IMG/VR virus record: IMGVR_UViG_3300030098_002339
Location: 1 to 64,000 of that record
Length of the DNA stretch: 64,000 nt
Source of the DNA: a virus
Direction: 5' to 3' (one strand)
This document shows, one piece after another, positions 1-44,252 of the stretch. Both the position numbers and the translations under genes were made by a program. Each line of letters opens with the position of its first letter. The stretch's first letter is position 1. The notes beneath the pieces were generated by a model. That model searched no databases. It was not told the origin of the DNA and saw nothing but the letters and a program-made list of their open reading frames with translations.

Positions 1-77
1 AATTTAAATCGGTAAATGTTCCTGGAACGTTCTGGGAACATTACCAAAACATAAGGAGAACAAAATATGAACTATGG
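1..77. repeat. 77-bp exact direct repeat, copy 1
   Basis: Bases 1-77 are identical to 44176-44252; the first mismatch is at base 78 (a here, t there). The repeat covers the intergenic hairpin, the ribosome binding site (aaggaga) and the first codons of the following small gene. It begins inside what would be the stop codon of the gene before it, as judged from the second copy. Flanking coding sequence is clearly diverged between copies, so the exact identity stands out. Confidence 0.95.
11..45 (+). promoter_or_regulatory. hairpin before the tail block, copy 1
   Basis: Arms ggtaaatgttcc (11-22) and ggaacattacc (35-45) pair over 11 bases with one bulged A. The 12-base loop holds the 8-base palindrome gaacgttc. 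No T-run follows, so it is not a classical terminator. It lies between the head genes and the first tail gene. An mRNA processing or stability element, an attenuator or a protein site are all possible. Confidence 0.55.
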
Positions 78-342
78 ATTAAGGGAAGTTACTTTAGAAA
101 AAGTAGCAACATCAAACAGTTCTGCAGCTTCTGCGGCATTTGGAGAAAATGTAGAATATGTAAGAATTGTATCTGATACTGATTGTTGGATTACTTTTGC
201 TGCTTCACCTACTGCTACATCAAGCAAAACATTTTTACCTGCTAAAGAAATTGAAATTTGGAAAGTTTCTCCAGGCGAAAAAGTTGCTGCTATATTAGCA
301 TCTGGCACAGGAGCTATATATATATCACAATTATCTGAATAA
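67..342 (+). CDS. small neck/head-tail protein, copy 1
   Basis: 91 residues, preceded by a good ribosome binding site (aaggaga, about 9 bases upstream). Rich in Ser, Ala and Thr, with predicted beta-strand character and no membrane segment. It is the first gene of the tail block and overlaps the next gene by one base (taatg). The homologue at 44242-44520 is the same length within one residue and shares the MNYGLR start. Its position just before the adaptor suggests a head-surface or neck protein. No family recognised. Confidence 0.8.
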   Translation: MNYGLREVTLEKVATSNSSAASAAFGENVEYVRIVSDTDCWITFAASPTATSSKTFLPAKEIEIWKVSPGEKVAAILASGTGAIYISQLSE

Positions 343-680
343 TGGCAAAAGTCAGAGCAACAGAATGGAATGCTGATAATACCAAGACTAAATATATACA
401 AGAGTCTGATGGTAAATTAACAATTAATAATCAGCAAGATCTCAATCCTTTAATGAAAAGGAACAAAGAACTTTATAACTTAAACGATGGTTATACTGCT
501 TCTAGAGATATGAGAAGAGTTGCTAGTGTACCGCCTATTATATTACAAATATGGACAAAAGAATATAATGGTACACGTAATTGGTGGGCTTTACCAAAAG
601 AAACACAAAAAAAAATATTAACTAAGAAATTAAATTCTAGTGATTTTAGATATTTTAGAACCTCGGAAGGATCATTATAA
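342..680 (+). CDS. conserved neck protein, copy 1
   Basis: 112 residues, start overlapping the previous stop. Contains a well conserved central stretch (DGYTASRDMRR, then VPPIILQIW) and a tryptophan pair (NWWALP). The copy at 44520-44858 differs at 19 of 112 positions by my count. The position directly before the adaptor gene suggests a portal- or adaptor-associated virion component, but no named family is recognised. Confidence 0.8.
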   Translation: MAKVRATEWNADNTKTKYIQESDGKLTINNQQDLNPLMKRNKELYNLNDGYTASRDMRRVASVPPIILQIWTKEYNGTRNWWALPKETQKKILTKKLNSSDFRYFRTSEGSL

Positions 681-1351
681 TGGCATTAAATACTTACACA
701 TCATTAAAAACAGCTATAGCTAATTGGTTAAATCGAAGTGATTTGACGAATGAGATTGCTGATGATTTTATCAAATTAACTGAAGCTGATTTTAATTCAA
801 AATTAAGGATCAGACAAATGGAACAGATTGATACTGTTACTATTAATGCTGAAACTGTAACTGTACCAACTGGTTTTATTGGTGTTAGATCCTTTTATAT
901 TCTATCAGCTAGTACTAAATTTCCTTTAGAATATATTACACCACATAATATGTTTGAAATTAGAGGAGGTTCTAGAACTGGTAGACCTAGATCATATACA
1001 ATTGAGGCAGATAATGAAACCGAACACTTTAGATTTGGTCCTAGTCCTGATACTACTTATACTGGCTACTTATCATATTATAAAAACTTGGAATCTCTTA
1101 GCTCAAATAATGCCAATTCCAGCAATTATATTTTAAGTAATCATCCAGGTATTTATTTGTATGGTAGTCTTTACCATGCATCTAATTTTATTGGTGGAGT
1201 GGATCCAGACCAAAAAAGCAATTGGTTACAAATGTATATCGCAGCTCTTGAAAGATGCGAAAATAATGACAAACAAGATAATTATGGTGGAGCACCTGTT
1301 CAACAAAGAACAGATGTTCAAACTGATTTATCGTTTTATAGGAATAGATAA
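680..1351 (+). CDS. SU10-type phage adaptor protein, copy 1
   Basis: 223 residues. An N-terminal helical region (LKTAIANWLNRSDLT) is followed by a region with a phospholipid-like beta layout (GFIGVRSFYI, YITPHNMFEIRGG) and a C-terminal helix (WLQMYIAALERCENND). This resembles the adaptor proteins of SU10-like podoviruses that bind below the portal and join head to tail. One-base overlap with both neighbours. Near-identical copy at 44858-45529. The family call rests on motif layout and context. Confidence 0.75.
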   Translation: MALNTYTSLKTAIANWLNRSDLTNEIADDFIKLTEADFNSKLRIRQMEQIDTVTINAETVTVPTGFIGVRSFYILSASTKFPLEYITPHNMFEIRGGSRTGRPRSYTIEADNETEHFRFGPSPDTTYTGYLSYYKNLESLSSNNANSSNYILSNHPGIYLYGSLYHASNFIGGVDPDQKSNWLQMYIAALERCENNDKQDNYGGAPVQQRTDVQTDLSFYRNR

Positions 1352-2796
1352 TGCAAGTACCTTTTGGAGAATGGTTACCCGATATTCCAGATCATTTGAA
1401 TAAGGGAGCTACAACTGCAACTAATGTATTTCCTGCAGCTGTTAGTTACAAACCATTTAAAGCATCACAACAAAAATCAAACGCATTAGATAGTCAATGC
1501 TTTGGTGGATTTTCCACTAAAGATAATAGTGCAAACGTTTATACTTTTGCAGGTACTAAATCAAAATTATACAAATTATCTGGTGAAACATTTTCAGATG
1601 TTAGCCAAGCTAGTACAACATACAATGCAGGAGCTGATAACTTCTGGTCATTTTCTAATTTTGGAACAACAGTAGTTGCTTCTAATGGAGAAGATTCACC
1701 ACAAAAATTTGTAGTAGGAACTTCTAGTGCATTTGCAGATCTAGGTGGTTCTCCACCTATATTTACATTTTCTGCAGTTATTAGAGATTTCTTAGTAGTA
1801 GGAAGAATTAAAACAGTTAAAAACAGAGTACAATGGTCAGGTATTAATGATGTTGAAACTTGGACAGCTGGTACTAAACAATCTGATTATCAAGACTTAG
1901 CAGATGGTGGTGAAATAACTGGTATTGTAGGTGGTGAGTATGGTTATATATTTCAAGAAAACCAAATAACTCGTATGGACTATGTTGGAGGAACAACAGT
2001 ATTTAGATTTTCTGTTGTATCTAAAAACAGAGGTTCTATTTATGCTAAAGCAATAGCTCATGTAGGTAAACGAGTATTCTTTTATTCACAAGATGGTTTT
2101 TTTGAAATAGATGGTGAAAATGTTAAAGCAATAGGTCAGCATAAAGTTAATGATTATTTTAAAGATAACTTATCTGCTGGTTACCAACAAAATATTATAG
2201 CGGCAACAGATCCATTAAATCACTTAGCAGTTTGGTCATATCCTAGTACGGATGCTACAACAGGAGTCCAAGACAGATTATTAATTTATAATTATTCTGT
2301 TAATCGTTGGTCAGTTGTAGAAACAGCAGCTGAAATGATTTTTACACAATTTTCTGAAGCCTTTACAGTAGATACATTAGATACAGCATCTTCAAGTTTA
2401 GATAGTTTAACAGTATCTCTTGACTCCAGATATTGGCAAGGTGGTGTAGTTAATTTTGCAGGGTTTGATTCAGATCATAAACTTATTCAGTTTGATGGAT
2501 CTAATTTAGCAGCTACATTAGAAACAGGTGAAATAGAACCTGCACCAGGAGCACGAACTACTATTACTATGATAAGACCTTTAGTAGATGGAACGTCTAC
2601 TGCAAGAGTTACTAGCAGACTTAGATTAGCAGATAGCGGAACTAGCACAAGTTATTCTAGTTTACAAAGTAATGGAGATATTCCAGTTAGATCTTCTGGA
2701 AGGTATCATAAGATTGGAGTTGCTATATCAGCAGCTACAACATGGAATGATGCTCAAGGTATAGACTTAATAGCAATTAAATCAGGATTACGATGA
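1351..2796 (+). CDS. tail nozzle-like protein, copy 1
   Basis: 481 residues with beta-strand-rich sequence throughout. It starts MQVPFGEWLPDIPDHLN, typical of tubular tail/nozzle proteins of marine podoviruses, and contains repeated propeller-like strands (for example GGEYGYIFQENQITRMDYVGG). The adaptor gene comes immediately before it and the fibre gene after it, as expected for the nozzle of a short tail. Equal-length copy at 45529-46974. Its stop overlaps the next start (atga). A nozzle role is inference from context and composition. Confidence 0.75.
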   Translation: MQVPFGEWLPDIPDHLNKGATTATNVFPAAVSYKPFKASQQKSNALDSQCFGGFSTKDNSANVYTFAGTKSKLYKLSGETFSDVSQASTTYNAGADNFWSFSNFGTTVVASNGEDSPQKFVVGTSSAFADLGGSPPIFTFSAVIRDFLVVGRIKTVKNRVQWSGINDVETWTAGTKQSDYQDLADGGEITGIVGGEYGYIFQENQITRMDYVGGTTVFRFSVVSKNRGSIYAKAIAHVGKRVFFYSQDGFFEIDGENVKAIGQHKVNDYFKDNLSAGYQQNIIAATDPLNHLAVWSYPSTDATTGVQDRLLIYNYSVNRWSVVETAAEMIFTQFSEAFTVDTLDTASSSLDSLTVSLDSRYWQGGVVNFAGFDSDHKLIQFDGSNLAATLETGEIEPAPGARTTITMIRPLVDGTSTARVTSRLRLADSGTSTSYSSLQSNGDIPVRSSGRYHKIGVAISAATTWNDAQGIDLIAIKSGLR

Positions 2797-2942
2797 GTGA
2801 TACAATAGATATAGATAACATAAGATTTGCATTTTCAGAAACAGACTACTTCCAGCGTGAAGTAGAACGTTCTGTTAATGAATTAATATTAAAAAACAAC
2901 CAAGAAAATGACAAAACATTTATTTGGTTTATGGGAGGATAA
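2793..2942 (+). CDS. 49-residue acidic protein between nozzle and fibre, copy 1
   Basis: Starts at the ATG overlapping the nozzle stop (atga) and ends two bases before the fibre start. Sequence MSDTIDIDNIRFAFSETDYF... with an acidic amphipathic helix, ending TFIWFMGG. The last codons encode the ribosome binding site of the fibre gene (gggagg). The equivalent gene at 46971-47120 has the same length and almost the same protein, which supports it as real. Function unknown; a tail assembly or fibre-attachment peptide is possible. Confidence 0.75.
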   Translation: MSDTIDIDNIRFAFSETDYFQREVERSVNELILKNNQENDKTFIWFMGG

Positions 2943-2944
2943 TA

Positions 2945-5023
2945 ATGGCAGGATCATACGTAGGAAAATATGATACAACAGCTGCAAATAATACAGCTAC
3001 AGGAACAGGCTCGGTTAGTATAGCAGAAGGTATGTTACCTTCTAATGTTAACAATGCTATGAGAGATATCATGGCTGACATTAGGCAATGGTATAACTCG
3101 GCTGAATGGATTGAATATGGAGATGGAGCAGGAACATATACACCTGCTTATGCATCTGGTACAAGTTTTACAATTGCAAGTGCAGACGTTACATCTGCTT
3201 ATCACGTTGGCAGAAGAGTAAAAGCAGTTGGTTCTTCAACTGGAACAATTTACGGATCAATTACAGCAACAGCATTTTCAACTAATACAACAGTTACAGT
3301 TTCTTGGGATTCAGGTTCATTATCAAATGAATCTTTAACAATTTATATTGGTATTACAAGTGCAACAAACACTTCAATGCCAGAAACTCCATCTATTACT
3401 GGAGATTACACATTAGATGTATCTGGAGATATTGTATTAGATGCTGGTGGTGCTGATGTTGTTTTAAAAGATGATGGTACTCAATATGGTACTTTAACTA
3501 ACACTTCAGGAAATTTAATTATCAAATCTGGTAGTACAACAGCTTTAACATTTAGTGGAGCTAATGCTACCCTTGCTGGAGACTTAACAATTTCTGGTGA
3601 CGATTTAACTATGGGTACTAATACTTCAGGACATGTATTAGTAGCTGATGGTACAAACTTTAATCCAGTAGCAATTAGTGGTGATGTTACAATAGCTTCT
3701 AATGGAGCTGTAACAATTGGAAGTGGAACTGTTGAAACAGCTATGATTGCAGCTGATGCAATTACAGGAGCTAAAATTGCTGATGACGCAATTAATTCTG
3801 AACATTACACAGATGGAAGTATAGATACAGCTCATATAGCTGATTCACAAGTTACAGCAGATAAACTTGCAAGTAGTGCTGTTACTACAGCTAAAATAAA
3901 TGCTGACGCAGTAACAGGTGCTAAAATAGCAGATGATGCTATTAATAGTGAACACTACACAGATGCATCTATTGATACTGCACATATTGCAGATGATCAA
4001 GTAACTCAAGATAAAATAGCAGATGATGCTGTAGGTGCTGATCAATTAGCATCTAATGCTGTTGTTAACGCAAGTGTAGCATCTGGTGCTGCTATTGCAG
4101 ATTCAAAATTAGATACAATATCAACAGCTAACAAAGTTAGTTTAGCTGCATTAGATATAGATGGTGCTTCAGCTATTGGCGAAGCAGTTGTAGACGCTGA
4201 CTTATTTATAGTTGATAATGGTGCAGGCGGAACTAATAGAAAAGTTGCTGCTTCAGTATTAAAAACTTACGCACAAACTGGCGTATCTTCAGCAGCTGAT
4301 GATATTACAGTTGGTGATGCTGCTGTTACTATTGGTAATGGTAGTACATCTGCAGATATTACAATAGATTCAGGAGATGACATTGTTATTGATGCAGCTG
4401 GTGGAAATATAGAATTTAAAGATTCAGGTACACTTCAATTTACAATTGACATGGATGGCACAGCAGGTGTTCAAATTGTAAAACTTGGTGTTGATTCAGA
4501 TGATTTAGTTTTTCAACAATACGATGGTAATGAGGTTGTTCGTGTAGCTGATGATAGAAGATTATACTTTTATGACAAAGGTGGAGAATATATTTCATCT
4601 GATGGATCAGCTTTAACTTTAGCTTCTGGTGGAACAGCATTTGAATTACCAGCGGCAGACGGAAATGCAAACCAAGTTATTAAAACTGATGGATCTGGAA
4701 ATTTAGATTTCGTAGATATGTCAGGTGGAACATCTTGGCAAGCTATTCAAACTTCAGGGTTTACAGCAGCAGCTGGTAAAGGTTATCCTTGTAATACTAC
4801 AAGTGCAGCTTTTACAGTTACGCTTCCTGCTTCTCCAAGTTTAGGAGATGAAGTTACAGTTGTTGATTATGCAGGAACTGCTGATACAAATAATATTACA
4901 ATTGGAAGAAACTCAAAACCAATTCAAGGTGTTGCAGAAGATTTAACAGTAGCAACTGAAAGAGCTGCATTTACATTAGTCTTTGTTGATAACACTCATG
5001 GTTGGTTATTAAAAGATAAATAA
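2945..5023 (+). CDS. tail fibre with collagen-like/IADDAI repeats, copy 1
   Basis: 692 residues from the ATG that follows the ribosome binding site gggagg; an upstream in-frame ATG at 2924 is out of position for it. The N-terminal ~170 residues are nearly identical to the copy at 47124 and probably form the tail-attachment domain. The middle carries repeats such as GAKIADDAINSEHYTDGSID. The last ~90 residues (TLPASPSLGDEVTVVDYAG to the end) are conserved again. Typical trimeric fibre architecture. Attachment to the tail and host recognition are inferred. Confidence 0.8.
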   Translation: MAGSYVGKYDTTAANNTATGTGSVSIAEGMLPSNVNNAMRDIMADIRQWYNSAEWIEYGDGAGTYTPAYASGTSFTIASADVTSAYHVGRRVKAVGSSTGTIYGSITATAFSTNTTVTVSWDSGSLSNESLTIYIGITSATNTSMPETPSITGDYTLDVSGDIVLDAGGADVVLKDDGTQYGTLTNTSGNLIIKSGSTTALTFSGANATLAGDLTISGDDLTMGTNTSGHVLVADGTNFNPVAISGDVTIASNGAVTIGSGTVETAMIAADAITGAKIADDAINSEHYTDGSIDTAHIADSQVTADKLASSAVTTAKINADAVTGAKIADDAINSEHYTDASIDTAHIADDQVTQDKIADDAVGADQLASNAVVNASVASGAAIADSKLDTISTANKVSLAALDIDGASAIGEAVVDADLFIVDNGAGGTNRKVAASVLKTYAQTGVSSAADDITVGDAAVTIGNGSTSADITIDSGDDIVIDAAGGNIEFKDSGTLQFTIDMDGTAGVQIVKLGVDSDDLVFQQYDGNEVVRVADDRRLYFYDKGGEYISSDGSALTLASGGTAFELPAADGNANQVIKTDGSGNLDFVDMSGGTSWQAIQTSGFTAAAGKGYPCNTTSAAFTVTLPASPSLGDEVTVVDYAGTADTNNITIGRNSKPIQGVAEDLTVATERAAFTLVFVDNTHGWLLKDK
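3752..4051 (+). repeat. 150-bp (50-codon) tandem repeat inside fibre gene
   Basis: A unit encoding ADAITGAKIADDAINSEHYT starts at 3752 and recurs at 3902, 150 bases later, with synonymous changes. The next unit is only partly recognisable. The copy-2 fibre has no such repeat, so this is a difference in repeat content between the two alleles. Confidence 0.8.
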
Positions 5024-6012
5024 TGGCAACTTACAGAAAAGTCGGTGGCACTAGGGTTAAAACCTATAGTAGCGATCCCCCAACAGCATATCCATCAGCA
5101 TGGGAAGGTAATTTATATTACAATTCTTCTGATGGACAATTTAAGTTTCAAACTTTAGGTGCAGGATCTTGGTCAAGCGGTGGAACTATGAATTCTGGTA
5201 GAACAACTAAACAAAGTGCTGGAACTGGAAATGATAACGTAATAGTTGCTGGGGGTTACGATGCTTCTTCTTCACCACCAACTGCTCCTAGAACTTTATC
5301 TGAAAGTTACAATGGAACAGCTTGGACTGAAACTTCAGAAAATAATGATGGAAGACAATTTGGTGGTGGTTGTGGAACAAATACAGCTGCTATAATTATG
5401 GGAGGCGATCCAAGTTCTTTTTTAGGTGCAACTGAATCATGGAATGGTTCTAGTTGGTCAGAAGAAGCTGATTTAAATACAGGACGTAATCAAAATGAAG
5501 GATCTGGAACTTCTACAGCAGCATTATGTGTAGCTGGTGGAAATCCTGGAGCAGTTTCTAATGTAGAATCATGGAATGGAAGTGCTTGGACAGAAACATC
5601 AACTGATTTAAATACAGCAAAAAAATATGTGTGGGCAACTGGAAGTAATACAGCCTGTTTGGCTTCAGGAACTCCCGCAACTACAGAACAATTTAATGGC
5701 TCATCTTGGACAGAGGTTACAGAATCTACTACTGACCACCGCTCAGGTGCAGCTTCAGGAATATATACAGATTGTATAGTTTTTGGTGGAGATAATGGAC
5801 CAGGACAAGTAGCTAAAACAGAACAATGGAATGGTTCATCTTGGACTGAAGGTAATGATTTAGCAACAGCGAGATCATATCTTGGAGGATCAGGTAACAC
5901 TCCAAATTCAACAACAGCAATAGCTTTTGGTGGGTCAGGATTACCAGCTGAAACAGGTGCAACAGAAGAATGGGCATTAGGACACACACTTAAAAAGGTA
6001 ACAACAAGTTAA
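5023..6012 (+). CDS. kelch-like repeat protein, one propeller, copy 1
   Basis: 329 residues. After a short N-terminal segment (MATYRKVGGTRVKTY) and a collar (GNLYYNSSDGQFK) there are six repeats of about 45-50 residues with the pattern ESWNGSSWTE, then ADLNTGR, then TSTAALCVAGG. This looks like a six-bladed beta-propeller of kelch/galactose-oxidase type. It lies directly after the fibre gene (one-base overlap), suggesting a tail-tip adhesin that binds host surface sugars or proteins. Function inferred; the repeats are seen directly. Confidence 0.75.
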   Translation: MATYRKVGGTRVKTYSSDPPTAYPSAWEGNLYYNSSDGQFKFQTLGAGSWSSGGTMNSGRTTKQSAGTGNDNVIVAGGYDASSSPPTAPRTLSESYNGTAWTETSENNDGRQFGGGCGTNTAAIIMGGDPSSFLGATESWNGSSWSEEADLNTGRNQNEGSGTSTAALCVAGGNPGAVSNVESWNGSAWTETSTDLNTAKKYVWATGSNTACLASGTPATTEQFNGSSWTEVTESTTDHRSGAASGIYTDCIVFGGDNGPGQVAKTEQWNGSSWTEGNDLATARSYLGGSGNTPNSTTAIAFGGSGLPAETGATEEWALGHTLKKVTTS

Positions 6013-6032
6013 TAGAATTAAAGGAGGAAACT

Positions 6033-6338
6033 ATGGCATATAAATATACTGTTAAAGAAAACTGGGGTAAAAATTTTTTTACTCACGAAGAAAGAAAACA
6101 GATGTATCTTGCAGGTCATCCTGGTAATGTTTGGGTTGTTGATGACAATATCTTTGGCGATCAATGGATTGGCAAAATTGGCGGAACAACTAAAACTAAA
6201 GCAGAAGCTCAAGCTATTGTAGACGGTGAAATTGAAGACGCTCAAGATGCTTGGGATGCAAACAATGTTGATGGCGAATCATCAGATGAAAAAATTGCAA
6301 GACTTGGAGCTAAACCAGTTAAATACAATCTACCATAA
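6033..6338 (+). CDS. small protein among kelch genes, copy 1
   Basis: 101 residues with an unusually strong ribosome binding site (aaaggagg) ahead of the start. Central motif GHPGNVWVVDDNIFGDQWI, then a helical acidic C-terminal half (AEAQAIVDGEIEDAQDAW). The homologue at 52214-52507 also has a perfect aaggagg but lies after the second kelch gene, not the first. A fibre chaperone or small structural partner of the kelch proteins is possible. No family recognised. Confidence 0.75.
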   Translation: MAYKYTVKENWGKNFFTHEERKQMYLAGHPGNVWVVDDNIFGDQWIGKIGGTTKTKAEAQAIVDGEIEDAQDAWDANNVDGESSDEKIARLGAKPVKYNLP

Positions 6339-6349
6339 GGAATTAATTA

Positions 6350-8191
6350 ATGACTACCTATAAAGGTATAAAAGGATTAGGAATACAAAATGTAACTTCT
6401 GATGCTATTTCTTCTCAAATGGGAGGAGGTACATGGGCTTCTGGTGGAAGTTTAAATACAGATAGATGGGCTTTAGCTGGTGCAGGAACTCAAACTGCGG
6501 CTATTGCTATTAATGGACAAAATCCTAACGTAACTGATGTTGCAGAAACGTATGACGGAAGTAGTTGGACTGAAATAACAGAAAATAATACTGGAAGAAA
6601 TGTAGGAGCTGCTGCTGGAACTTCTACAGCTACTATATTTTTTGGTGGATATACAGGCACAGCATATACAGCAGACGCAGAAACTTGGAATGGAAGTTCT
6701 TGGACTGAAGGTACAAATTTAAATACTGCTAGAGGAGAAATGGGTGGTGCAGGACAAGCAAATACAGCAGCTTTAGCATTTGGTGGAGACACACCTGGTA
6801 GAACAGGAGCTACAGAAATTTGGAATGGTTCTTCGTGGACAGAATCAGGAGATTTATCAGTAGCAACAAAACATATAAAAGGAACAGGAACAAGTACTGC
6901 TGGTGTAGCAGTTGGAGGCACACATCCAGATAACTCAATAGTTGGAGATGTCGAAACTTTTAATGGTACTGCTTGGTCAGAAATAGCTGAAATAAATACT
7001 GCAAGATTTCAAACCGCTGCTTCAGGTACAACTACGTCAACTTTAGTTTTTGGAGGAATGAGTGCTGCTACTACAGCTACAGTTAATACGGAATCGTATG
7101 ATGGTTCTACATGGACTGAAGTTGCTAATTTAGCTACAGGAAGAGGATTTGTTGGCAGTATTTCTGGTAGTTCAGTTGCAGCTTCTGCTATATTTGGAGG
7201 AACAACTAATGCTGGTACTCCAGGAGATACAGCAGCTACAGAAGAATGGTCAGCACCCGCAACAATCAGACAATTTAATATAGGCGACATATACTATAAC
7301 GCAGACCCATCATCAGGTGTTATAAAATATGTTGGATATGGCACAGGAGCTTGGGCTTCTGGAGGAAATTTAAACACGCCAAGAAATGATTTAGATGGTT
7401 CAGGTTCATTAACAGCAGGACTTGCTTTTGGTGGAAATCCTGCAACAGGTGTAACTGAAGAATATAATGGAAGTGCATGGACAGAATCAGGAGATTTAAA
7501 CACATCCAGAAGGGCTATAGCAGGTTTTGGTACACAAACAGCTACAATAGCCTCATTTGGTGGAGAAAATCCTTATAACGATGAAACAGAACAATACAAT
7601 GGATCTACTTGGAGTGAGATAGCTGAAGTTAATACAGCAGGTGGTGGTTCACCTGGTGGTGCTGGAACAACTACAGCAGGTTTATTTTTTGGTAGAAGAA
7701 AAACTCCAGTTGCTACAAAAGGTGGAGAAACAGAATTATGGAATGGATCATCTTGGGCAGAACAATCAGATTTAAATACTGCTCGATGGGCAATAGGTGG
7801 ATTAGGAACTTCAACAGCTGCTTTAGCAATTGGTGGAGCACCCCCTCATTATGATACTGTAGAACAATGGAATGGATCTTCGTGGACTGAAATTGCTGAA
7901 ATTAACACAGCTAGAAGTCAGGGAGGTGCAGCAGGTACAACGACAGATGGTTTGTATTTTGTTGGAGAAGCAAGTCCAGGTCCTCAAAATATAACAGAAT
8001 CTTGGAATGGTACTGCTTGGACTGAAATAGCTGATGCATCAGCAGGTGCAGGTAAAGTTGCAGATTCTGACTCAAGTGCTAAAAGTGCTTTCTTTGCTGG
8101 TGGAGATGGTCCTCCAGGTAGTGCAGTAGCAACAACAGAAGAATGGAATGTACCAACAGCACTTCAAACACTAGCGAGTACAAACGCATGA
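6350..8191 (+). CDS. kelch-like repeat protein, two propellers, copy 1
   Basis: 613 residues. N-terminus MTTYKGIKGLGIQNV shares the short leader of the other kelch genes. Two runs of about six repeats (NGSSWTE, then LNTAR, then TAALAFGG) are separated near residue 310 by a linker with the collar motif GDIYYNADPSSGVIKYV. It therefore reads as two 6-bladed propellers in tandem, as if the 329-residue type had doubled. Start 12 bases after the previous stop. Host adhesin role inferred. Confidence 0.75.
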   Translation: MTTYKGIKGLGIQNVTSDAISSQMGGGTWASGGSLNTDRWALAGAGTQTAAIAINGQNPNVTDVAETYDGSSWTEITENNTGRNVGAAAGTSTATIFFGGYTGTAYTADAETWNGSSWTEGTNLNTARGEMGGAGQANTAALAFGGDTPGRTGATEIWNGSSWTESGDLSVATKHIKGTGTSTAGVAVGGTHPDNSIVGDVETFNGTAWSEIAEINTARFQTAASGTTTSTLVFGGMSAATTATVNTESYDGSTWTEVANLATGRGFVGSISGSSVAASAIFGGTTNAGTPGDTAATEEWSAPATIRQFNIGDIYYNADPSSGVIKYVGYGTGAWASGGNLNTPRNDLDGSGSLTAGLAFGGNPATGVTEEYNGSAWTESGDLNTSRRAIAGFGTQTATIASFGGENPYNDETEQYNGSTWSEIAEVNTAGGGSPGGAGTTTAGLFFGRRKTPVATKGGETELWNGSSWAEQSDLNTARWAIGGLGTSTAALAIGGAPPHYDTVEQWNGSSWTEIAEINTARSQGGAAGTTTDGLYFVGEASPGPQNITESWNGTAWTEIADASAGAGKVADSDSSAKSAFFAGGDGPPGSAVATTEEWNVPTALQTLASTNA

Positions 8192-9996
8192 CGAAATATA
8201 TAGAAATAAAAGGACATTCAATACAATCAGTAGATACTGATCCTGTGGTTTATGCTGGAGCATGGGCTAGTGGAACAGCTCTTAATACAGCAAGACAAAA
8301 TCTTCATGGAACTGGAACACAAACATCAGGTTTAGTTTGTGGAGGAGATGCACCACCTCCTGTTAGCGGTAGAACTGAAGAATATGATGGTAGTTCTTGG
8401 ACAGAAAGCGGAGATTTTAATACATCAAGACAATATAATGCTACTGTAGGATCACAAACAGCAGCTATAACTAATGCAGGTCAAACATCTACTGCTGTAG
8501 CAAATGTTGAAACTTACAATGGATCAACTTGGACTGAAACAGGAGATGTCAATACAGCTAGATATGGTTCTGGAGCAGCAGGATCAACCACAGCAACTCT
8601 TATTGCTGGAGGAGTAGGTGGTACAGCAAACGCTGAAACTTTTGATGGTTCAAGTTGGACTGAAGTAGGGGATTTAAATAATGGAAGAGCTTATATGGGA
8701 TATGCTGGTCAAGCTCCACAAACTGCTGCATTAGTTTTTGGTGGTGGACCAGGAGGTAATGCAAATGTTGAATCTTGGGATGGCTCAAGTTGGACTGAAT
8801 TAGCAAATTTAAATGTAGCTATGCAAGCAGGAGCAGGAGCAGGGATACAAACTTCAGCGCTTTATTTTGGTGGAGCAAATCCTGGACAACCTTCTGTTGC
8901 AGGAACAGAAAGTTGGGACGGAAGTGCTTGGACTGAAGTTGCTGATATGGGAACAGCAAGAGGTGATCTTTCAGGTTTTGGTTTAGGTTCTGCAGCAGTA
9001 GCAGCAGGAGGAAATCAATCTCCAAAAGGTCAAACAGAAGAATGGTCTTTCCCATCAACACCAGCAGTACAACTAGGACAAGTTTGGTTTAATACAGGTT
9101 CATCAACACTTAAAGGATATGCACAACAAGGAACTGGAACATGGTCATCAGGCGGAAATGCAAATACTGCTAGAGGTAATGGATTTTCTTTTGGTTCACA
9201 AACAGCAGGAATTTTTGCATCAGGTTATACTGGATCAAATGTAGATAATGTAGAAAATTATAATGGATCATCTTGGACTGAAATAGCAGAAGTTAATACT
9301 GCTAGAAGAGAGGGAGCAGGATTTGGTACTTCTACTGCTGGATTAGTTTTTGGTGGACGACCTCCAATAGCAACTATAACAGAATCTTGGAATGGAAGTA
9401 GTTGGACAGAAACAGCAGATTTAAATACAGCTAGAGCAGATAGTCATATAAGAGCTGGAACATCAACAGATGGAATATGGGCAGGTGGACAAGATGGAAG
9501 TCCAGCTTCAGAAACATATTTAGTAGTTAAAACCGAAAAATGGAATGGTAGTGCGTGGTCCGAAGTAGGAGATTTGAATACTGGAAGAGAAGCAGGGGGA
9601 AATGCTGGAACAAGCTCTTCTTATGCTTTAGCAGTAGGAGGTAATCCACCATCTCCAGGTGGTATTGTAGAATCTTGGGATGGAAGCTCTTGGACCGAAG
9701 TAGGAGATTTAAATACAGCACGATCTTGGTGTACAGGTAGTGGTGGTAGTAATACAGATTCAATAAATTTTGGTGGTAGAACACCAGGAAGTGTAAACGA
9801 AAATAAAACCGAATCTTGGAATGGAAGTTCATGGACAGAAGTTGCAGATATGGCAACAGCTAGATATACACAAGGAAGTTCATCCAATGGAACTACAAAA
9901 ACTGGTTTGTGTATAATGGGAAATAATGGAAGTTATATAACAACTACAGAAGAATGGACAGTTCCATCTTCAACCAAGACGCTAACAGTATCATAG
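8188..9996 (+). CDS. kelch-like repeat protein, two propellers, second of the pair, copy 1
   Basis: 602 residues from the ATG that overlaps the previous stop (atga); the in-frame ATG at 8143 lies inside the previous gene and lacks support. Leader MTKYIEIKGHSIQSVDTDP matches the other kelch genes. Two repeat blocks are split by the collar GQVWFNTGSSTLKGY. Consensus WNGSSWTE, DLNTAR, FGG. The shared leader suggests a common docking site on the tail with exchangeable propellers. Confidence 0.75.
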   Translation: MTKYIEIKGHSIQSVDTDPVVYAGAWASGTALNTARQNLHGTGTQTSGLVCGGDAPPPVSGRTEEYDGSSWTESGDFNTSRQYNATVGSQTAAITNAGQTSTAVANVETYNGSTWTETGDVNTARYGSGAAGSTTATLIAGGVGGTANAETFDGSSWTEVGDLNNGRAYMGYAGQAPQTAALVFGGGPGGNANVESWDGSSWTELANLNVAMQAGAGAGIQTSALYFGGANPGQPSVAGTESWDGSAWTEVADMGTARGDLSGFGLGSAAVAAGGNQSPKGQTEEWSFPSTPAVQLGQVWFNTGSSTLKGYAQQGTGTWSSGGNANTARGNGFSFGSQTAGIFASGYTGSNVDNVENYNGSSWTEIAEVNTARREGAGFGTSTAGLVFGGRPPIATITESWNGSSWTETADLNTARADSHIRAGTSTDGIWAGGQDGSPASETYLVVKTEKWNGSAWSEVGDLNTGREAGGNAGTSSSYALAVGGNPPSPGGIVESWDGSSWTEVGDLNTARSWCTGSGGSNTDSINFGGRTPGSVNENKTESWNGSSWTEVADMATARYTQGSSSNGTTKTGLCIMGNNGSYITTTEEWTVPSSTKTLTVS

Positions 9997-25750: not shown

Positions 25751-26015
25751 ACTTAAAGATCAACTGGCAGGAATAGCAGCTCTAGTAGCAGCTATCGTTG
25801 CTATAGGCGGTGGATTTATTAAATATGGTGAGATTACTACTAAGTTAGATAACTTATCTAATCAATCACCAGAACAAGCTGAAGAAGTAGCTGAAAACTC
25901 AGGCAACATTATTGATAATCAACAATCAATTAAAGTTTTACAAACTGAAATGGAACTGTTAAAAGTTCGAATGAAAGAATTACAACAAGAATCTAAAAAT
26001 CCACTTGGTGGATAA
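25743..26015 (+). CDS. membrane-anchored coiled-coil protein
   Basis: 90 residues. N-terminal membrane helix (GIAALVAAIVAIGGGFI) and charged helical body ending MKELQQESKNPLGG. Close in layout to the gene at 23205. Overlaps its neighbours on both sides (eight bases, then one). Unrecognised. Confidence 0.6.
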   Translation: MGKLKDQLAGIAALVAAIVAIGGGFIKYGEITTKLDNLSNQSPEQAEEVAENSGNIIDNQQSIKVLQTEMELLKVRMKELQQESKNPLGG

Positions 26016-26134
26016 TGAAAAAGATTAAAGAATCTATTATAGAAATATTTGTTCTTATTTTATACTTCTCATTTTGTTTTCTAATATTGATTTTTATTGG
26101 AATCTTATGGTTAGTAGATAAACTAATTAAATAA
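26015..26134 (+). CDS. 39-residue membrane peptide at operon end
   Basis: Starts in the one-base overlap with the previous stop. It reads MKKIKESIIEIFVLILYFSF and then more aliphatic residues, ending VDKLIK: one transmembrane helix bracketed by lysines. Its stop lies inside the convergent leftward gene (26127-26810), an eight-base tail-to-tail overlap. The last rightward gene before the early block. Confidence 0.55.
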   Translation: MKKIKESIIEIFVLILYFSFCFLILIFIGILWLVDKLIK

Positions 26135-37604: not shown

Positions 37605-37619
37605 AATAACGAGGAAACC

Positions 37620-37838: not shown

Positions 37839-38155
37839 TGTCAGAAGTTGAAAAAAATCCAAATTATGGAGGCAAAAGGGAAGGTGCAGGAAGACCTTTA
37901 GGGTCTAAAAGCACTAAACCTAAGTGGAAAAGTATGGAAGAAATGTCCGTAAAATACCAACATTCCCCTTTAGATTATATGCTAGCTGTGTTAAACAATC
38001 CTATGAGTTCACCTGAACGTAAAATGTATGCAGCTGAAAAAGCAGCACCATTTGTTCACCCAAGGTTAGCTTCAACACAATCACGAATAGGATCTGATGA
38101 ACCAATTGAAATCAAAGTCGAGTGGCAAAAAGACCAAGAAAATAAAAAAGATTGA
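37838..38155 (+). CDS. terminase small subunit-like protein
   Basis: 105 residues. N-terminal GGKREGAGRPLGSKS is the hallmark start of many small terminases, followed by a helical region (SPLDYMLAVLNNP, RKMYAAEKAAPFVHPRL). Directly precedes the large subunit with overlap. Expected to recognise pac/cos and load DNA. Confidence 0.7.
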   Translation: MSEVEKNPNYGGKREGAGRPLGSKSTKPKWKSMEEMSVKYQHSPLDYMLAVLNNPMSSPERKMYAAEKAAPFVHPRLASTQSRIGSDEPIEIKVEWQKDQENKKD

Positions 38156-39404
38156 AATTCCTTATAAGCCACGAGAATATCAATTAGAAGTACATAACAA
38201 TAAAAAAAGATTTAATGTACTGGTTTGTCATAGACGATTTGGTAAATCAGTATTATCAATTAACGAATTAATTAAAACCGCAGCTGCTAAGCCTAGATCT
38301 TTATGTGCATTTATTGCACCAACTTACAGACAAGGTAAAGCAATTGCTTGGGAATATTTAAAATTTTACACTAAACCTTTAATGTATTTTGGAGGTGGAC
38401 GAAATGAGACTGAATTAAGAATAGATTTATTTAACGGAAGTCGTATTCAAATATTTGGTGCAGATCATCCAGACTCAATCCGAGGAATGGGATTTGATGG
38501 AGTCGTAATGGATGAATATGCGATTATGTCACCAAGAGTCTGGACAGAAATTATACGTCCAGCAGTTTCTGATAAACTAGGATGGGTAATGTTTATTGGA
38601 ACACCAATGGGTCATAATCAATTTTGGGAAGTATATGACTATGCACAACGTGGTCATAAAGATTGGATGGGTAAAATCTATCGAGCTTCCGAAACCAAAG
38701 TGATTCCAGATGAAGAGCTGGAACAGGCACGTGCGATAATGACTGAAGAACAATTCGAACAGGAGTTTGAATGTTCATTTACTGCAGCAGTCTCAGGCAG
38801 TTATTATGGAAGATTAATAACTAAAGCCGACTCCGAGAGGAGAATTACCAGCGTGCCACTAGATTCAAATGTAGGTGTAGAAACGTGGTGGGATTTAGGT
38901 ATAGGTGACTCAACAGCGATTTGGTTCGCACAAAGAGTGGGCAAGGAAATACATCTCATTGATTATTACGAAACTTCAGGTGAGTCATTAGCACATTATG
39001 CTGATAAACTTGAAGAAAAAGGATATGCTTATTCTAATCATATAGCTCCACACGATATAATGGCTAGAGAATTAGGAACAGGTAAATCTAGAATAGAAGT
39101 AGCAAGTGATTTGGGTATACAATTTGAAGTTGCTCCTAAATTAGAAGTAGATCATGGAATAGAAACTGTGAGAAACTATTTATCACATTGTTATTTTGAT
39201 AGAGAAAAATGCAAAGTAGGACTAGATGCATTGAGACAATATCGAAAACAATGGGACGATAAAAACCAAGTGTTTAAGAATAAACCTTTACACGATTGGT
39301 GTTCACATGCAGCTGACGCTTTTAGGTACGGATGTGTTGCAGAACCAATTAATATGTCAGAATGGAATAAACCAATTAGAGTAGATACAAAATATATAGT
39401 ATGA
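38097..39404 (+). CDS. terminase large subunit
   Basis: 435 residues. Walker A HRRFGKS at 45-51, Walker B VVMDE at 136-140, then a C-terminal nuclease part (WWDLGIGDSTAIW, ending HDWCSHAADAFRYG) with the expected acidic residues. Packages DNA into the prohead and cuts concatemers. The start overlaps the small subunit gene by 59 bases. Confidence 0.9.
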   Translation: MNQLKSKSSGKKTKKIKKIEIPYKPREYQLEVHNNKKRFNVLVCHRRFGKSVLSINELIKTAAAKPRSLCAFIAPTYRQGKAIAWEYLKFYTKPLMYFGGGRNETELRIDLFNGSRIQIFGADHPDSIRGMGFDGVVMDEYAIMSPRVWTEIIRPAVSDKLGWVMFIGTPMGHNQFWEVYDYAQRGHKDWMGKIYRASETKVIPDEELEQARAIMTEEQFEQEFECSFTAAVSGSYYGRLITKADSERRITSVPLDSNVGVETWWDLGIGDSTAIWFAQRVGKEIHLIDYYETSGESLAHYADKLEEKGYAYSNHIAPHDIMARELGTGKSRIEVASDLGIQFEVAPKLEVDHGIETVRNYLSHCYFDREKCKVGLDALRQYRKQWDDKNQVFKNKPLHDWCSHAADAFRYGCVAEPINMSEWNKPIRVDTKYIV

Positions 39405-41554
39405 AAAAATCAGAACAAGAAATATTATCAATATTAAATACAGAAATACATAACGCATCAGGATTTATTGGTGGCGAGTTAGTAGCTAGAAGAAAAAAAT
39501 CTTTAAGCTATTATCTTGGTATGCCCTTAGGGAACGAACAAGAAGGTCGTTCTCAAGTGGTATCCAATGATGTATTAGACACAGTAGAAAGTCTAATGCC
39601 ATCTTTAATGAGAATTTTTACATCTGGAGATAATGTATTTCAATGTGAAGGTGTTGGACCAGAAGACGATGAAATGGCTCGTCAATGTTCCGATTACCTT
39701 AATTATATTTTTTATAAAGAGAATGATGGCTTTGTAGCCTTATATTCTGCATTTAAAGATGCATTAATCCAAAAGAATGGAATTTTAAAAGTATACTGGG
39801 ATGATTCAGAAAAAACTGAAAGAGAAGAATATACAAGATTAACAGATGATGAATTTAATGATCTTGTTGCAGATTCAGAAGTTAAAGTTAAAAATCATTC
39901 AGAATACGAAGAATCTATAACAGATGATCGTGGTAAAGAAATTGATAAAGTTACTTTACACGATGTTGTTATTCATAGAACAAGATTATATGGTAAGGTT
40001 AGAATTGAACCTGTACCACCTGAAGAATTTTTAATTGAAAGAAGATGTAAAGATATTAATTCAGCTAACTTTGTTTGTCATAGAACAAATAAAACTAGAT
40101 CTGAATTAGTTGAAATGGGTTTTCCTAAAGATGTTGTAGAAAATATACCTCAAGGTGATACTGATTTCTTTACAGAAGATAAATTTACTAGACACCAAAA
40201 CGTAGATTTCTCACATGGAGAAAATGATGGAGATAGATCCACTAATGATATTTTAGTATATGAATCATATATTAAGATGGATGTTAATAATGATGGTAAA
40301 TCAGAATTATTAAAAATAACTACTGCTGGATCTGGAACTGGTAAAATTTTAGATATGACTGAAATAGATAGTATTCCGTTTATATCTATGACACCAGTTA
40401 TTATGCCTCACAGATTTCATGGAAGATCTATATCTGAATTAGTAGAAGACATCCAATTAATTAAATCTACTGTTATGAGACAAATGTTAGATAACATGTA
40501 TCTAACAAATAATAACAGAGTTGCTGTCCAAGATGGACAAGTAGCAATGGATGATCTTTTAACAAATCGTCCAGGCGGAATTGTAAGAACTAAACAACCT
40601 CCACAAAATGTTATGATGCCTATTCAGGCACAACCTATTACAGAACAAGCAAGTGGAATGTTATCTTACTTAGATTCTGTTAAAGAAACTAGAACTGGAA
40701 TTACAAGACAATCACAAGGTCTTGATGCTAATACTTTAAACAAAACAGCAACAGGTCAAAACCAAATTCTAACTCAATCTCAAATGAGAATGGAATTGAT
40801 TGCAAGAATCTTTGCTGAAACAGGTGTTAAAGATTTAGCATTAAAAATGTTTGAACTTACTTGTAAGTATCAACAAAAAGAAAAGATCGTAAGAATTAGA
40901 GGTAAGTATATACCTATGAGACCTTACGAATGGAAAGACAGAGTTAATATTACTGTTCAAGTAGGACTAGGTACAGGTTCTAAAGAACAACAACTAATTT
41001 TATTAAACGCTATTCTTGAAAGACAAATGCAAGCAATTAATTTGCAACAGAATGTATTTGGTCCAATGGTTAATTTAAGAAACGTTTATAATACACTTAA
41101 GAAATTAATTGAGAATGCAGGACTTAATGGAATTGAACCATACTTTATGGATCCAGATGTCGGTGCAGCTCAAATGCCTCAACTACCACCTAAACCTCCA
41201 ACTGAGTTTGAAAGAGTTACATTAGCTCAAGTTCAAGGTGAAAATCAAAGAGCTCAGTTAGAAGCTAATACAAGATTAAAAGAAGTTGAAGCTAAAATGA
41301 GACAACAATTGCTTGATTTTGAAATACAAATTAAAGAATTAGAGCTTAAATATGGTTCACAAATAGATGAGCTTGAATTGAAGCGTAGAAGTATGTTAGA
41401 ACAAACAGATCTTCAGAAATCTGGAGATATGATGAAAGAAATAGTCAAAGGACAACAAAAATTCTTTAATGATAAACAAAATGGAAAAGCAAATCAGGGA
41501 GGGCAAACGAGCCCAAGTACTTCTAAACGATCCTCTTCTAAAACAAGCGTTTGA
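39401..41554 (+). CDS. portal protein
   Basis: 717 residues directly after the terminase with a four-base overlap. N-terminal region (RRKKSLSYYLGMPLGNEQEGR, VSNDVLDTVESLMPSLMRIF) and a helical C-terminal part (FEIQIKELELKYGSQIDELELK) fit portal proteins of SU10/P22-like podoviruses. Forms the dodecameric DNA gate at one vertex. Confidence 0.85.
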   Translation: MKKSEQEILSILNTEIHNASGFIGGELVARRKKSLSYYLGMPLGNEQEGRSQVVSNDVLDTVESLMPSLMRIFTSGDNVFQCEGVGPEDDEMARQCSDYLNYIFYKENDGFVALYSAFKDALIQKNGILKVYWDDSEKTEREEYTRLTDDEFNDLVADSEVKVKNHSEYEESITDDRGKEIDKVTLHDVVIHRTRLYGKVRIEPVPPEEFLIERRCKDINSANFVCHRTNKTRSELVEMGFPKDVVENIPQGDTDFFTEDKFTRHQNVDFSHGENDGDRSTNDILVYESYIKMDVNNDGKSELLKITTAGSGTGKILDMTEIDSIPFISMTPVIMPHRFHGRSISELVEDIQLIKSTVMRQMLDNMYLTNNNRVAVQDGQVAMDDLLTNRPGGIVRTKQPPQNVMMPIQAQPITEQASGMLSYLDSVKETRTGITRQSQGLDANTLNKTATGQNQILTQSQMRMELIARIFAETGVKDLALKMFELTCKYQQKEKIVRIRGKYIPMRPYEWKDRVNITVQVGLGTGSKEQQLILLNAILERQMQAINLQQNVFGPMVNLRNVYNTLKKLIENAGLNGIEPYFMDPDVGAAQMPQLPPKPPTEFERVTLAQVQGENQRAQLEANTRLKEVEAKMRQQLLDFEIQIKELELKYGSQIDELELKRRSMLEQTDLQKSGDMMKEIVKGQQKFFNDKQNGKANQGGQTSPSTSKRSSSKTSV

Positions 41555-41732
41555 GGATTTACTAGAAACTTACAAGCAAGAAATTTTTAATACAAGTTTT
41601 GCTGACGATAATAAACGCAGATCTCTTTGGATGGCATATAATATGCTAGACAAAATTAGAGGTCATTTACAGTCTATTATGGAAAGCGGAAAACTAGCTC
41701 AAAAAGATCTTGAGCAGTTAAATAAGAGCTAA
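41481..41732 (+). CDS. small head protein overlapping portal
   Basis: 83 residues from the ATG at 41481 (MEKQIREGKRAQVLLNDPLL), reading in another frame than the portal end for 74 bases. Helical, charged. Similar small genes sit between portal and scaffold in many phages. Unrecognised. Confidence 0.6.
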   Translation: MEKQIREGKRAQVLLNDPLLKQAFEDLLETYKQEIFNTSFADDNKRRSLWMAYNMLDKIRGHLQSIMESGKLAQKDLEQLNKS

Positions 41733-41780
41733 CCTATTCTAGGAGCTCAATATACGTCAACCAACAAGGAGGAACGTTAC

Positions 41781-42773
41781 ATGGCAGAAAGTACTAATGT
41801 ACAAGGTGCTGCTGATAAGATCAAAGGACTTCTGAATCCTGAACAAGGACAATCAGAACCTAAGAAAAAAGCAGAACCATCAGAGCAACCTGAAAAGATC
41901 AAACAGGAATCTTCAAAAGAGAGTCAATCAAAGTCTGAAGAAACTCCAAAAGAAGAAGCATCTGAAAATACTGAGATCAAAGAAGAAACGCAAACAGCAA
42001 CAGAGGAACCAGAACTCCACCGAGTCAAAGTACAAGGTCAAGAGTTAGAGGTTAGCCTCGATGAACTGAAAGCAGGTTATTCTAGAGACTCGGATTATAG
42101 ACAAAAAACTCATTCTTTAGGCTTAGAGAAAAAAGATCTTGAAGCTCAAAAGAGTAGTTTGCGTCAAAATTATGACAATCGTTTAAGTGAACTTAACGAC
42201 TTGATTGCAACTGCTGATGGTTTCATCAGACAACAACAAGGTAGTAAAGATCTTAAAAAACTTTGGGAAGAAGATCCCACGTCTGCAGCACGACTGGATT
42301 ACCAGTTAAGAGAACAAAACAGGCAGATAGATGATATGAAATCCAAAGCAAAAGACGCTTATCAAAAACAATATGATGAGTACCTTGATACACAGAGACA
42401 GTTAGCAGCAGCGAGAATACCAGAATACAGCGATCCTAATAAAGCTGATCAATTTAGAACTGATATGAGAACCTCTTTGAGGTCTTATGGTTTTAGTGAG
42501 CAGGAAATTGGGAATCTGGCTGATCATCGTTTTTTAATGGTGATTAGAGATGCTATGAGTTATAAATCTGTTAAAGATAGAAAACCTATAGTCCAGAAGA
42601 AGGTAGCTAACGCACCTAAAGTTGTTAAAGCTGGTGTCGCTAAACCAAGTACAGGCACAGGACGAGACGCCATAAGAAACAAAATTGGCAAGTTAGCAAA
42701 AACTGGTCATATTAAAGATGCCCAGTCTGCAATACTTGACATGATTAATCTTAAATCTCAACAAAAAAGGTAA
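41781..42773 (+). CDS. scaffolding protein
   Basis: 330 residues. Acidic, Glu/Lys/Ser-rich disordered N-terminus to ~85, coiled-coil centre, and a basic helix-rich C-terminus (AGVAKPSTGTGRDAIRNKI). Clear ribosome binding site aaggagg. Position just before the capsid gene and the composition make it the assembly scaffold. Confidence 0.8.
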   Translation: MAESTNVQGAADKIKGLLNPEQGQSEPKKKAEPSEQPEKIKQESSKESQSKSEETPKEEASENTEIKEETQTATEEPELHRVKVQGQELEVSLDELKAGYSRDSDYRQKTHSLGLEKKDLEAQKSSLRQNYDNRLSELNDLIATADGFIRQQQGSKDLKKLWEEDPTSAARLDYQLREQNRQIDDMKSKAKDAYQKQYDEYLDTQRQLAAARIPEYSDPNKADQFRTDMRTSLRSYGFSEQEIGNLADHRFLMVIRDAMSYKSVKDRKPIVQKKVANAPKVVKAGVAKPSTGTGRDAIRNKIGKLAKTGHIKDAQSAILDMINLKSQQKR

Positions 42774-42779
42774 AACACA

Positions 42780-43721
42780 ATGGCACAACCAACAAATACG
42801 TTTGATACGTATGACAGTATTGGTGAAAGAGAAGACCTGTCGGATGTTATTTATAACATCTCGCCAACTGACACTCCATTCTTAAGCTCAGCTGCTAAAG
42901 TAAAAGCAACTGCAGTTTTACACGAATGGCAAACTGACAGCTTGGCTGCAGCTTCTACATCAAACGCTGTAATCGAAGGTGACGAAGCCACTTTGGATTC
43001 TACTTCTGCAACAACTAGATTATCTAACTCTTGTCAAATTATGGACAAAACAGTTGTAATCACAGGTACGCAAGAAGCAGTTAACAAAGCTGGTAGAGCA
43101 TCTGAGATCGCTTATCAAGTAGCTAAAAGAGCTAAAGAGCTTAAAAGAGACTTGGAAGCAATGTTAACAACAAACAACGCTGAAGTAACAGGTAACGCTA
43201 CAACAGCAAGAGAAATGGGTTCATTAAGAGCATGGGTTGCTACTAATGACGTAATGGGAACTTCTGGAACATCTGGAGCAGCAGGTAATACTGCAGCAAC
43301 TGATGGAACTCAAAGAGTTTTCACAGAATCTCTCTTGAAATCTGTAATTAAATCAGTATGGGAGCAAGGTGGAAATCCAACTATGGTTATGGTTGGTCCT
43401 TTCAACAAGCAAAAATTATCAGGATTTACTGGTAATAGTACTAGATTCGATGCAGGTGCTGATGCAACTTTGTATACATCAGTTGATGTTTACGCTTCTG
43501 ACTTTGGTCAGCTTCAAGTAGTACCTAACAGATTCTCTAGAGATAGAGATGCTTGGGTATTAGACATGGATTACTGGGGAGTAGCTTTCTTAAGAGACTT
43601 TCAAATGCATGATCTTTCAAAAACTGGAGACACAGAGAAAAAACAACTTCTTTTAGAAGCAACTCTGGAATCTAGAAACGAAGCTGCAAGTGGCTGCGTA
43701 GCAGACTTGACAACATCGTAA
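42780..43721 (+). CDS. major capsid protein (SU10/DUF5309 type)
   Basis: 313 residues. N-terminus PTNTFDTYDSIGEREDLSDV, then IYNISPTDTPFLSSAAKVKA, VIEGDEAT and later PNRFSRDRDAWVLDMDYWG are hallmarks of the DUF5309/SU10 major head protein family. It carries the HK97-like fold. Follows scaffold within seven bases and is followed by hairpins. Confidence 0.9.
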   Translation: MAQPTNTFDTYDSIGEREDLSDVIYNISPTDTPFLSSAAKVKATAVLHEWQTDSLAAASTSNAVIEGDEATLDSTSATTRLSNSCQIMDKTVVITGTQEAVNKAGRASEIAYQVAKRAKELKRDLEAMLTTNNAEVTGNATTAREMGSLRAWVATNDVMGTSGTSGAAGNTAATDGTQRVFTESLLKSVIKSVWEQGGNPTMVMVGPFNKQKLSGFTGNSTRFDAGADATLYTSVDVYASDFGQLQVVPNRFSRDRDAWVLDMDYWGVAFLRDFQMHDLSKTGDTEKKQLLLEATLESRNEAASGCVADLTTS

Positions 43722-43737
43722 TAACTAAATAACTGTT

Positions 43738-43774
43738 TGGGCGAGTAACCTTAAATCTGCTCGCCCAGCAGATT
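43738..43774 (+). terminator. two alternative hairpins after capsid gene
   Basis: Stem A: tgggcgag (43738-43745) / ctcgccca (43760-43767), perfect 8 bp. Stem B: aatctgc (43754-43760) / gcagatt (43768-43774), perfect 7 bp, which includes the A right arm in its loop. The two cannot form fully together. A partial terminator, or an RNA structure setting the level of capsid versus later genes, is possible. Confidence 0.55.
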
Positions 43775-43829
43775 CTAACAATGAAGTCTTGAGAGAAGGT
43801 TAAAGGCGGAACATTAAAGGAATATAAAC

Positions 43830-44177
43830 ATGAGAACATTAAACGACTATTTTTTACATGCAGCAATCGCAGATATTAGTACAGCATCATCAACATTCGT
43901 GCCTGTACCTGATGGAGGCAAAGTAATAAAAATTATAACTGCTCTTCAAGGAGCAATTGGAACAGCTAATGGCGGAATTTCTTTCGAAATTGGTGGTACA
44001 GCAATAACTGGTGGCGGGATTACAGTAACACAATCTGGATCTGCTGCTGGGGATGTTGATACAGCAGAACCAACTGCAGCTAATGACGTTGCTGAAGATG
44101 GAACTATTGAAATGATAACTGACGGAGCTTCTAGCAACGCAGTTAAACTTAATGTAACATTCGTTATAAGAAGATAA
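43830..44177 (+). CDS. small head/decoration protein
   Basis: 115 residues with beta-strand alternation (GGKVIKIITALQGAIGTANGG, ISFEIGGTAITGGGITVTQ). Ribosome binding site aaggaat. Located between capsid and neck genes. Likely a capsid-decorating or stabilising protein. Its stop codon flows into the 77-bp repeat. Confidence 0.6.
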   Translation: MRTLNDYFLHAAIADISTASSTFVPVPDGGKVIKIITALQGAIGTANGGISFEIGGTAITGGGITVTQSGSAAGDVDTAEPTAANDVAEDGTIEMITDGASSNAVKLNVTFVIRR

Positions 44178-44252
44178 TTTAAATCGGTAAATGTTCCTGG
44201 AACGTTCTGGGAACATTACCAAAACATAAGGAGAACAAAATATGAACTATGG
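44176..44252. repeat. 77-bp exact direct repeat, copy 2
   Basis: Same 77 bases as 1-77, differing again from base 44253. In this copy the base before the repeat is the t of the taa stop of the preceding gene. Marks the junction at which the sequence of block A is taken up again by its diverged copy. Confidence 0.95.
44186..44220 (+). promoter_or_regulatory. hairpin before the tail block, copy 2
   Basis: Identical to the hairpin at 11-45 and here seen in full context, 8 bases after the stop of the head protein gene. See that entry for pairing. Confidence 0.55.

Follow-up and report, generated by a model that had tools for sequence, protein, structure and literature searches.

A virus record probably assembled from two related phages by way of a swapped gene

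Several lines of evidence suggest that IMG/VR virus record IMGVR_UViG_3300030098_002339 does not represent a single phage. The window analyzed here is the first 64,000 bases of this 88,284-base record (G000:C1:1-64000), and the element in question is an exact 77-base repeat that opens it and recurs at 44176–44252, at the edge of a small gene that we call gene 1. In our judgment the record is very probably a chimera in which the assembler fused the genomes of two distinct marine phages, A and B, both relatives of the Pelagibacter phage HTVC106P (MN698244). The likely bridge is A*, a form of phage A that carries a swapped gene 1 and is seen in another record. That the record is an artefact, whichever bridge was used, we regard as close to certain. 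The first-pass annotation of this sequence had already favored an assembly path, a reading now supported by the findings that A and B each close on themselves and occur apart elsewhere. It had traced that path through strains of one genome; instead there are two genomes, about 68–86% identical where they can be aligned.

Two genomes in one record

Direct comparison confirms that bases 1–77 are identical to 44176–44252 and that the match is lost immediately afterward (first mismatch at 78/44253), as had been noted, and 77 bases is the longest prefix of the window found again within it. The contig start that had been assumed at base 1 is indeed the first base of the record. The repeat takes in the last two bases of the stop codon of the preceding gene, gene 0, crosses the intergenic spacer, and extends 11 bases into gene 1. 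Because its left edge lies inside the gene 0 stop codon (gene 0 occupies 43830–44177 in the other copy), no gene boundary falls there. Exact runs of similar length occur elsewhere between A and B, namely 86 bases (14022/59093), 86 (43875/87826), 85 (44266/88200), and 81 (3328/47507), with 86 bases the longest run common to the two. A 77-base exact match is not unusual for this pair of genomes, and the point that needs explanation is its left boundary. The features on which the argument rests, with lengths in amino acids (aa) and open reading frames (ORFs) where relevant, are as follows.

1–77, plus strand: record start and first copy of the 77-base repeat, exactly equal to 44176–44252; branch vertex between two gene 1 alleles
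1–44175, plus strand: phage genome A, one full unit of 44,175 bases, circular or circularly permuted on the evidence of its self-closure in contig 3300030117_000282
44176–64000 (in the record, to 88284), plus strand: start of phage genome B, truncated by the window end
38097–43721, plus strand: head module of A, comprising terminase large subunit, portal, a small ORF, scaffold, and major head protein; PHROG matches for 4 of the 5 ORFs, the scan having covered all but the small one
43830–44177, plus strand: gene 0 (115 aa), directly upstream of the repeat; putative counterpart of HTVC106P gp61, judged from position and visual comparison
67–342, plus strand: gene 1, A allele (91 aa); putative counterpart of HTVC106P gp60, likewise judged from position and visual comparison; apparently an exchangeable cassette
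44242–44520, plus strand: gene 1, B allele (92 aa); nearly the same allele is found on contig 3300020473_000514 (L010), there within an A backbone

When the last 24.3 kb of the record (64–88.3 kb) was added and A and B were compared piecewise, the record proved to consist of A followed by B, colinear and head to tail, with a separate set of terminase, portal, scaffold, and capsid genes in B. Positions 1–3719 are 84.9% identical to 44176–47898, and matching pieces within the window extend to 18880 versus 63976. Identity is 72–78% for pieces of the remaining virion block, 68–86% for pieces of the nonvirion part, and 85.6% for the last 6.5 kb (81.8–88.2 kb vs. 37.85–44.35 kb), which holds the terminase, portal, scaffold, and head protein genes; the tail fiber genes and the region at 23.2–26.1 kb align poorly or not at all. 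At the protein level, 45 of 56 ORFs of A were matched in B, with nearly all of the order kept (E value 1e-8; nonshadow ORFs of at least 80 aa). This count leaves out gene 1, a shadow of an antisense ORF, and gene 0, which was cut by the slice, and it includes a 1073-aa ORF that is only partly matched, B being cut at 63,900 in that comparison. The unit of B, from 44266 to 88199, measures about 43,934 bases, and that of A agrees with the genome size of about 44.2 kb proposed earlier. A and B appear, from their sequences, to be two complete-looking genomes.

These comparisons also bear on the alternative raised in the first-pass annotation, a phage that would combine one head module with two tail modules and so be able to switch host range. 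Such a phage is compatible with the sequence inside the window, but not with what lies beyond it: after the second tail block come further nonvirion and head genes that belong to this block and reach to 88.2 kb. Of the second copy of 26–44 kb whose existence beyond 64 kb had been posed as a test, the head end is present at 81.8–88.2 kb and includes a second head module at 82061–87673, in which the counterparts of the A genes are 79–93% identical. Since B has its own head module, an arrangement of one head with two tail modules is excluded, and its probability is negligible. The diverged homology after the repeat, which had been estimated at about 20 kb, is likewise real in kind, but it is not limited to that distance and extends over a whole second genome to 88,284.

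Other IMG/VR contigs show each genome without the other (the first number of a contig name being, we assume, its dataset, at most one of the datasets named here is that of the record itself). The end of B reenters the start of B, in that 88200–88284 equals 44266–44350. Contig 3300030329_001194 (23,122 bases) runs from 87352–88284 (933/933) directly into 44266–54917 (99.98%) and continues to 66539 (52591–66539 at 100%). Similarly, contig 3300030117_000282 (6,277 bases) leads from the A end and spacer (98.9%) into the A start (99.6%). Thus, each genome closes on itself elsewhere. Furthermore, contig 3300030329_000463 (26,195 bases) follows A from 8133 to 31379 in two adjoining blocks (99.7% and 99.9%); beyond these, shorter blocks of 92.8–97.7%, separated by gaps, reach 7197 and 33597. 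Dataset 3300030329 therefore holds A and B on separate contigs (_000463 and _001194), and the two genomes of this one record occur apart in other contigs; the three contigs named here cover parts of A and B only. Among 187 loci, several of them on the same contig, 17 have stretches of 400 bases or longer with an identity to the record of at least 97%.

A host chromosome with two related prophages inserted side by side would also give two colinear genomes head to tail. Against this, the joint lies between two virion-module genes at the point where each genome closes on itself in other contigs, and the record both starts and ends inside phage genes. A PHROG scan of 30 ORFs of the window, 24 from A and 6 from B, found no integrase. 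We therefore assign a vanishingly small probability to tandem prophages.

Gene 1 and the passage from A to B

The bridge proposed here depends on gene 1 being exchanged between phage lineages. Scans for the exact A and B spacer sequences yielded 18 contigs, although sister datasets probably contribute some phages more than once. The A spacer, present in nine of these, is followed by a type A gene 1 in 3/9, by type B in 5/9, and by a third type in 1/9; the B spacer, present in the other nine, is followed by type B in 3/9 and by the third type in 6/9. Gene 1 itself has no Pfam match; its A allele has no PHROG match at an E value of 0.01, and its B allele has a single weak one (E value 0.0065). 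Across the 18 contigs at least three allele types stand in varied combinations with the upstream spacer and the downstream genes, a pattern of recurrent swapping.

One of these contigs, L010, is of particular relevance. It is 99.7% identical to the A end, spacer, and B-type gene 1 of the record (40908–44555), and from gene 2 onward it is A again (342–3955, 99.83%). L010 is phage A with a swapped gene 1, here called A*, the product of a natural cassette swap. The record equals L010 exactly over 44163–44420 and equals the B contig L018 exactly from 44266 for 8,323 bases. Because the match to A* is exact up to 44420 and the match to B is exact from 44266, the record leaves A for B inside gene 1. 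Two further features define this passage.

44163–44265, plus strand: stretch exactly matching A* (L010) and ending on 44265, the A/G site by which A* and B can be told apart
44266–44420, plus strand: zone of passage from A to B, 155 bases identical in A* and B and the longest exact match between L010 and L018

The switch thus falls within a stretch that is identical in both templates and, at 155 bases, longer than the k-mer length of 77 considered below. At this length, the k-mer at 44266–44342 has two incoming edges and that at 44344–44420 has two outgoing edges. The earlier proposal that the switch occurs at the 77-mer does not hold, since the A/G site at 44265 is still of the A* type and the match to the B contig begins only at 44266; the change lies within 44266–44420, and the 77-mer marks the branch between the A and A* alleles.

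To what extent gene 1 is exchanged independently of its neighbors can be gauged from 39 distinct gene 0/gene 1/gene 2 triples, of which 37 come from 47 loci with identical ones dropped and the other two are A and B. Pairwise distances correlate at 0.65 between gene 0 and gene 2, at 0.39 between gene 0 and gene 1, and at 0.45 between gene 1 and gene 2, values that are noisy given that the genes are short. Three of the 741 pairs combine a difference above 25% in gene 1 with differences of at most 4% in both neighbors: L010 and A, with 2.3% in gene 0, 38.8% in gene 1, and 1.2% in gene 2, and L190 and L191, each paired with L059, with about 1%, 27.6%, and 2.4%, respectively. Three pairs show the converse, at most 2% in gene 1 and more than 8% in both neighbors. 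In its sequence pattern the gene 1 swap looks like ordinary phage mosaicism at a gene boundary. Gene 1 may even be a favored site of exchange, a small gene of the virion module that moves as one piece while its flanks are conserved; we are doubtful of this, but hold it to be far likelier than the real 88-kb molecule considered below.

The bridge itself could have been different. The record could still be a chimera but owe its link between A and B to a true crossover in 44-kb recombinant phages with the head end and spacer of A and the tail of B, the assembler having walked A, then the recombinant, and then B. Spacer and downstream types are variously combined in nature, as the alleles that follow the A spacer illustrate, and contig L007 carries the A spacer with B-type genes for several kilobases (2,236 bases, 95.8% identical to B and 87.5% to A). 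Yet the near-identical A contig with a B gene 1 reverts to A at gene 2, and in none of the 18 spacer contigs, which are few and come from scans that may omit the closest records, is near-identical A sequence upstream joined to near-identical B sequence past gene 1. The record also has the A* base at 44265 and turns to B within the 155 shared bases, although a true crossover would match this as well. On balance, we consider a crossover of this kind unlikely.

Record ends and the assembly path

A branch-vertex test of the record ends was carried out for 14 values of k, with contigs L106 and L107 and the first 4,000 bases of L105 as haplotypes. At k = 77 the record opens on a branch vertex, and at each of the 13 other values it does not, which supports the earlier suggestion that the overlap at the record start has the length of a k-mer. 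No single k among these values explains both ends of the record, as 77 fits the start and 85 fits the end; a path built at k = 77 is expected to stop 8 bases before the actual end. The chimera reading is independent of the exact k.

Based on these observations, we envisage the following course of events. Phage lineages in the sea exchange gene 1, which measures about 276 bases and lies between the spacer and gene 2, so that A occurs both with its own gene 1 and, as A*, with that of B. In a k-mer graph A and A* would part at the last 77-mer before their gene 1 sequences diverge, and this 77-mer would begin at base 1 of the record. The assembly path would have gone once around A and then left the spacer by the A* branch into a B-type gene 1. 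Unable to separate A* from B across 155 identical bases, it would have continued into B, gone once around B, and halted just after reentering gene 1 of B. Three of these steps are presumed: that A* was present in the sample of the record, that the last k of the assembler was 77, and that reads or read pairs did not resolve the 155 bases.

Several points weigh against this account. A* is known from another record, and we infer its presence in the record's own sample. L010 differs from the record at 9 positions over 40908–44555, some of them just upstream of the spacer, and contig 3300030329_000463 is not A throughout, differing near 7.4–8.1 kb and past 31.4 kb. The last k-mer of the record is a branch vertex only at k = 85 among the 14 values and three haplotypes, and the overlap at the record end is 85 bases (44266–44350) rather than 77, with the A/G site at 44265 just before it; one k for both ends requires a further unseen variant or an extension of the end. 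Finally, the same sequence would result if A and B had truly crossed over within those 155 bases.

The record could also be taken at face value, as a real 88-kb molecule. Such a molecule would be a covalent hetero-dimer, a mixed concatemer or cointegrate formed by recombination between concatemers inside gene 1. Related phages plausibly replicate via concatemers, and the sequence as deposited is what a hetero-dimer would give. Against it stand the self-closure of A and B in other contigs, their separate occurrence in one dataset, and the overlap at the record start, which is of k-mer length and ends at the k = 77 branch vertex. Moreover, the longest contig among 160 related loci (the best 80 of 512 plus the best 80 of 124) has 39,272 bases, and the genome of the top-ranked isolate, HTVC106P, has 36.9 kb. 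We judge a hetero-dimer very improbable, and the assembly of A and B through A* remains the reading that we favor.

Relatives, published accounts, and implications

HTVC106P was top-ranked among 50,697 phage records for all four proteins searched, with amino acid identities of 51.7% for the portal, 50.7% for the terminase, 55.2% for the head protein, and 48.5% for a 481-aa tail protein, each of which has one place in its 36,945 bases. The gene order across the joint is the same in HTVC106P as in A and B, running terminase, portal, head protein, gp61, gp60, gp58 (33 of 70 annotated features viewed). With homologous terminase, portal, and head protein genes in the same order, A and B fall within an HTVC106P-like group, although HTVC106P is distant and smaller (36.9 kb vs. 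about 44 kb each). By analogy with this relative, the host of A and B may be Pelagibacter.

Other parts of the two genomes deserve brief mention. The tail-fiber-like genes (5023–9996 and 50369–54343) are rich in short internal repeats, and several match PHROG 27227. Divergence within the virion block is greatest here, with about 35–44% protein identity between A and B and a patchy DNA alignment. Three consecutive ORFs of A at 23733–26015 (197, 475, and 90 aa) are without a counterpart in B at an E value of 1e-8; for the two of these that were scanned against Pfam, nothing rose above the cut-off. One further gene was noted.

26127–26810, minus strand: 2OG-Fe(II) oxygenase-like gene (PHROG 81, E value 1.1e-26), with 86% DNA identity between A and B, nearby nonvirion pieces being mostly at about 68–76%

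Published work offers close parallels. Excerpts of the CheckV paper (PMC8116208) describe IMG/VR contigs with one genome repeated as probable assembly artefacts, report that direct terminal repeats of viral contigs accumulate at lengths such as 55, 77, and 99 bases, taken as assembler k-mers, and name chimeras of closely related viruses as a further target for which CheckV could be modified. In an extract from the COBRA paper (PMC10914622), contigs from metaSPAdes and MEGAHIT that are broken at repeats have maxK bases in common at their ends. For simulated viromes, chimeras are reported as usually occurring in less than 2.5% of the assembled datasets (PMC5610896).

The present record resembles the concatenated-genome contigs described in the CheckV excerpts in being about twice the genome length and in having a start overlap of a typical k-mer length (77). 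It differs in that those cases, as excerpted, repeat the same genome and were found by k-mer frequency, whereas the copies in this record are only about 68–86% identical, and therefore have few long k-mers in common. A concatemer of one genome was rejected as an explanation on the same grounds, the copies being too diverged and their longest exact run 86 bases; CheckV itself was not run. Like the chimeric contigs in the virome account (PMC5610896), the record is one contig from two distinct genomes; unlike the chimeras in that account, it has a likely bridge that can be named, a swapped gene giving 155 shared bases. The papers listed in the literature searches appear to be general accounts of chimeras and repeated genomes, and none on this record was seen among those listed. 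The case fits the published accounts and adds to them in one respect alone, a natural gene swap as the traceable source of the bridging stretch.

A record of this kind resembles a large single phage and can mislead estimates of genome size and gene duplication. Because its two copies are diverged, screens that rely on k-mer frequency to find duplicates would probably overlook it. The duplication most likely has no biological reality. The bridge itself does: a small gene has passed from one phage lineage to another, and the stretch shared through this swap is probably what misled the assembler.

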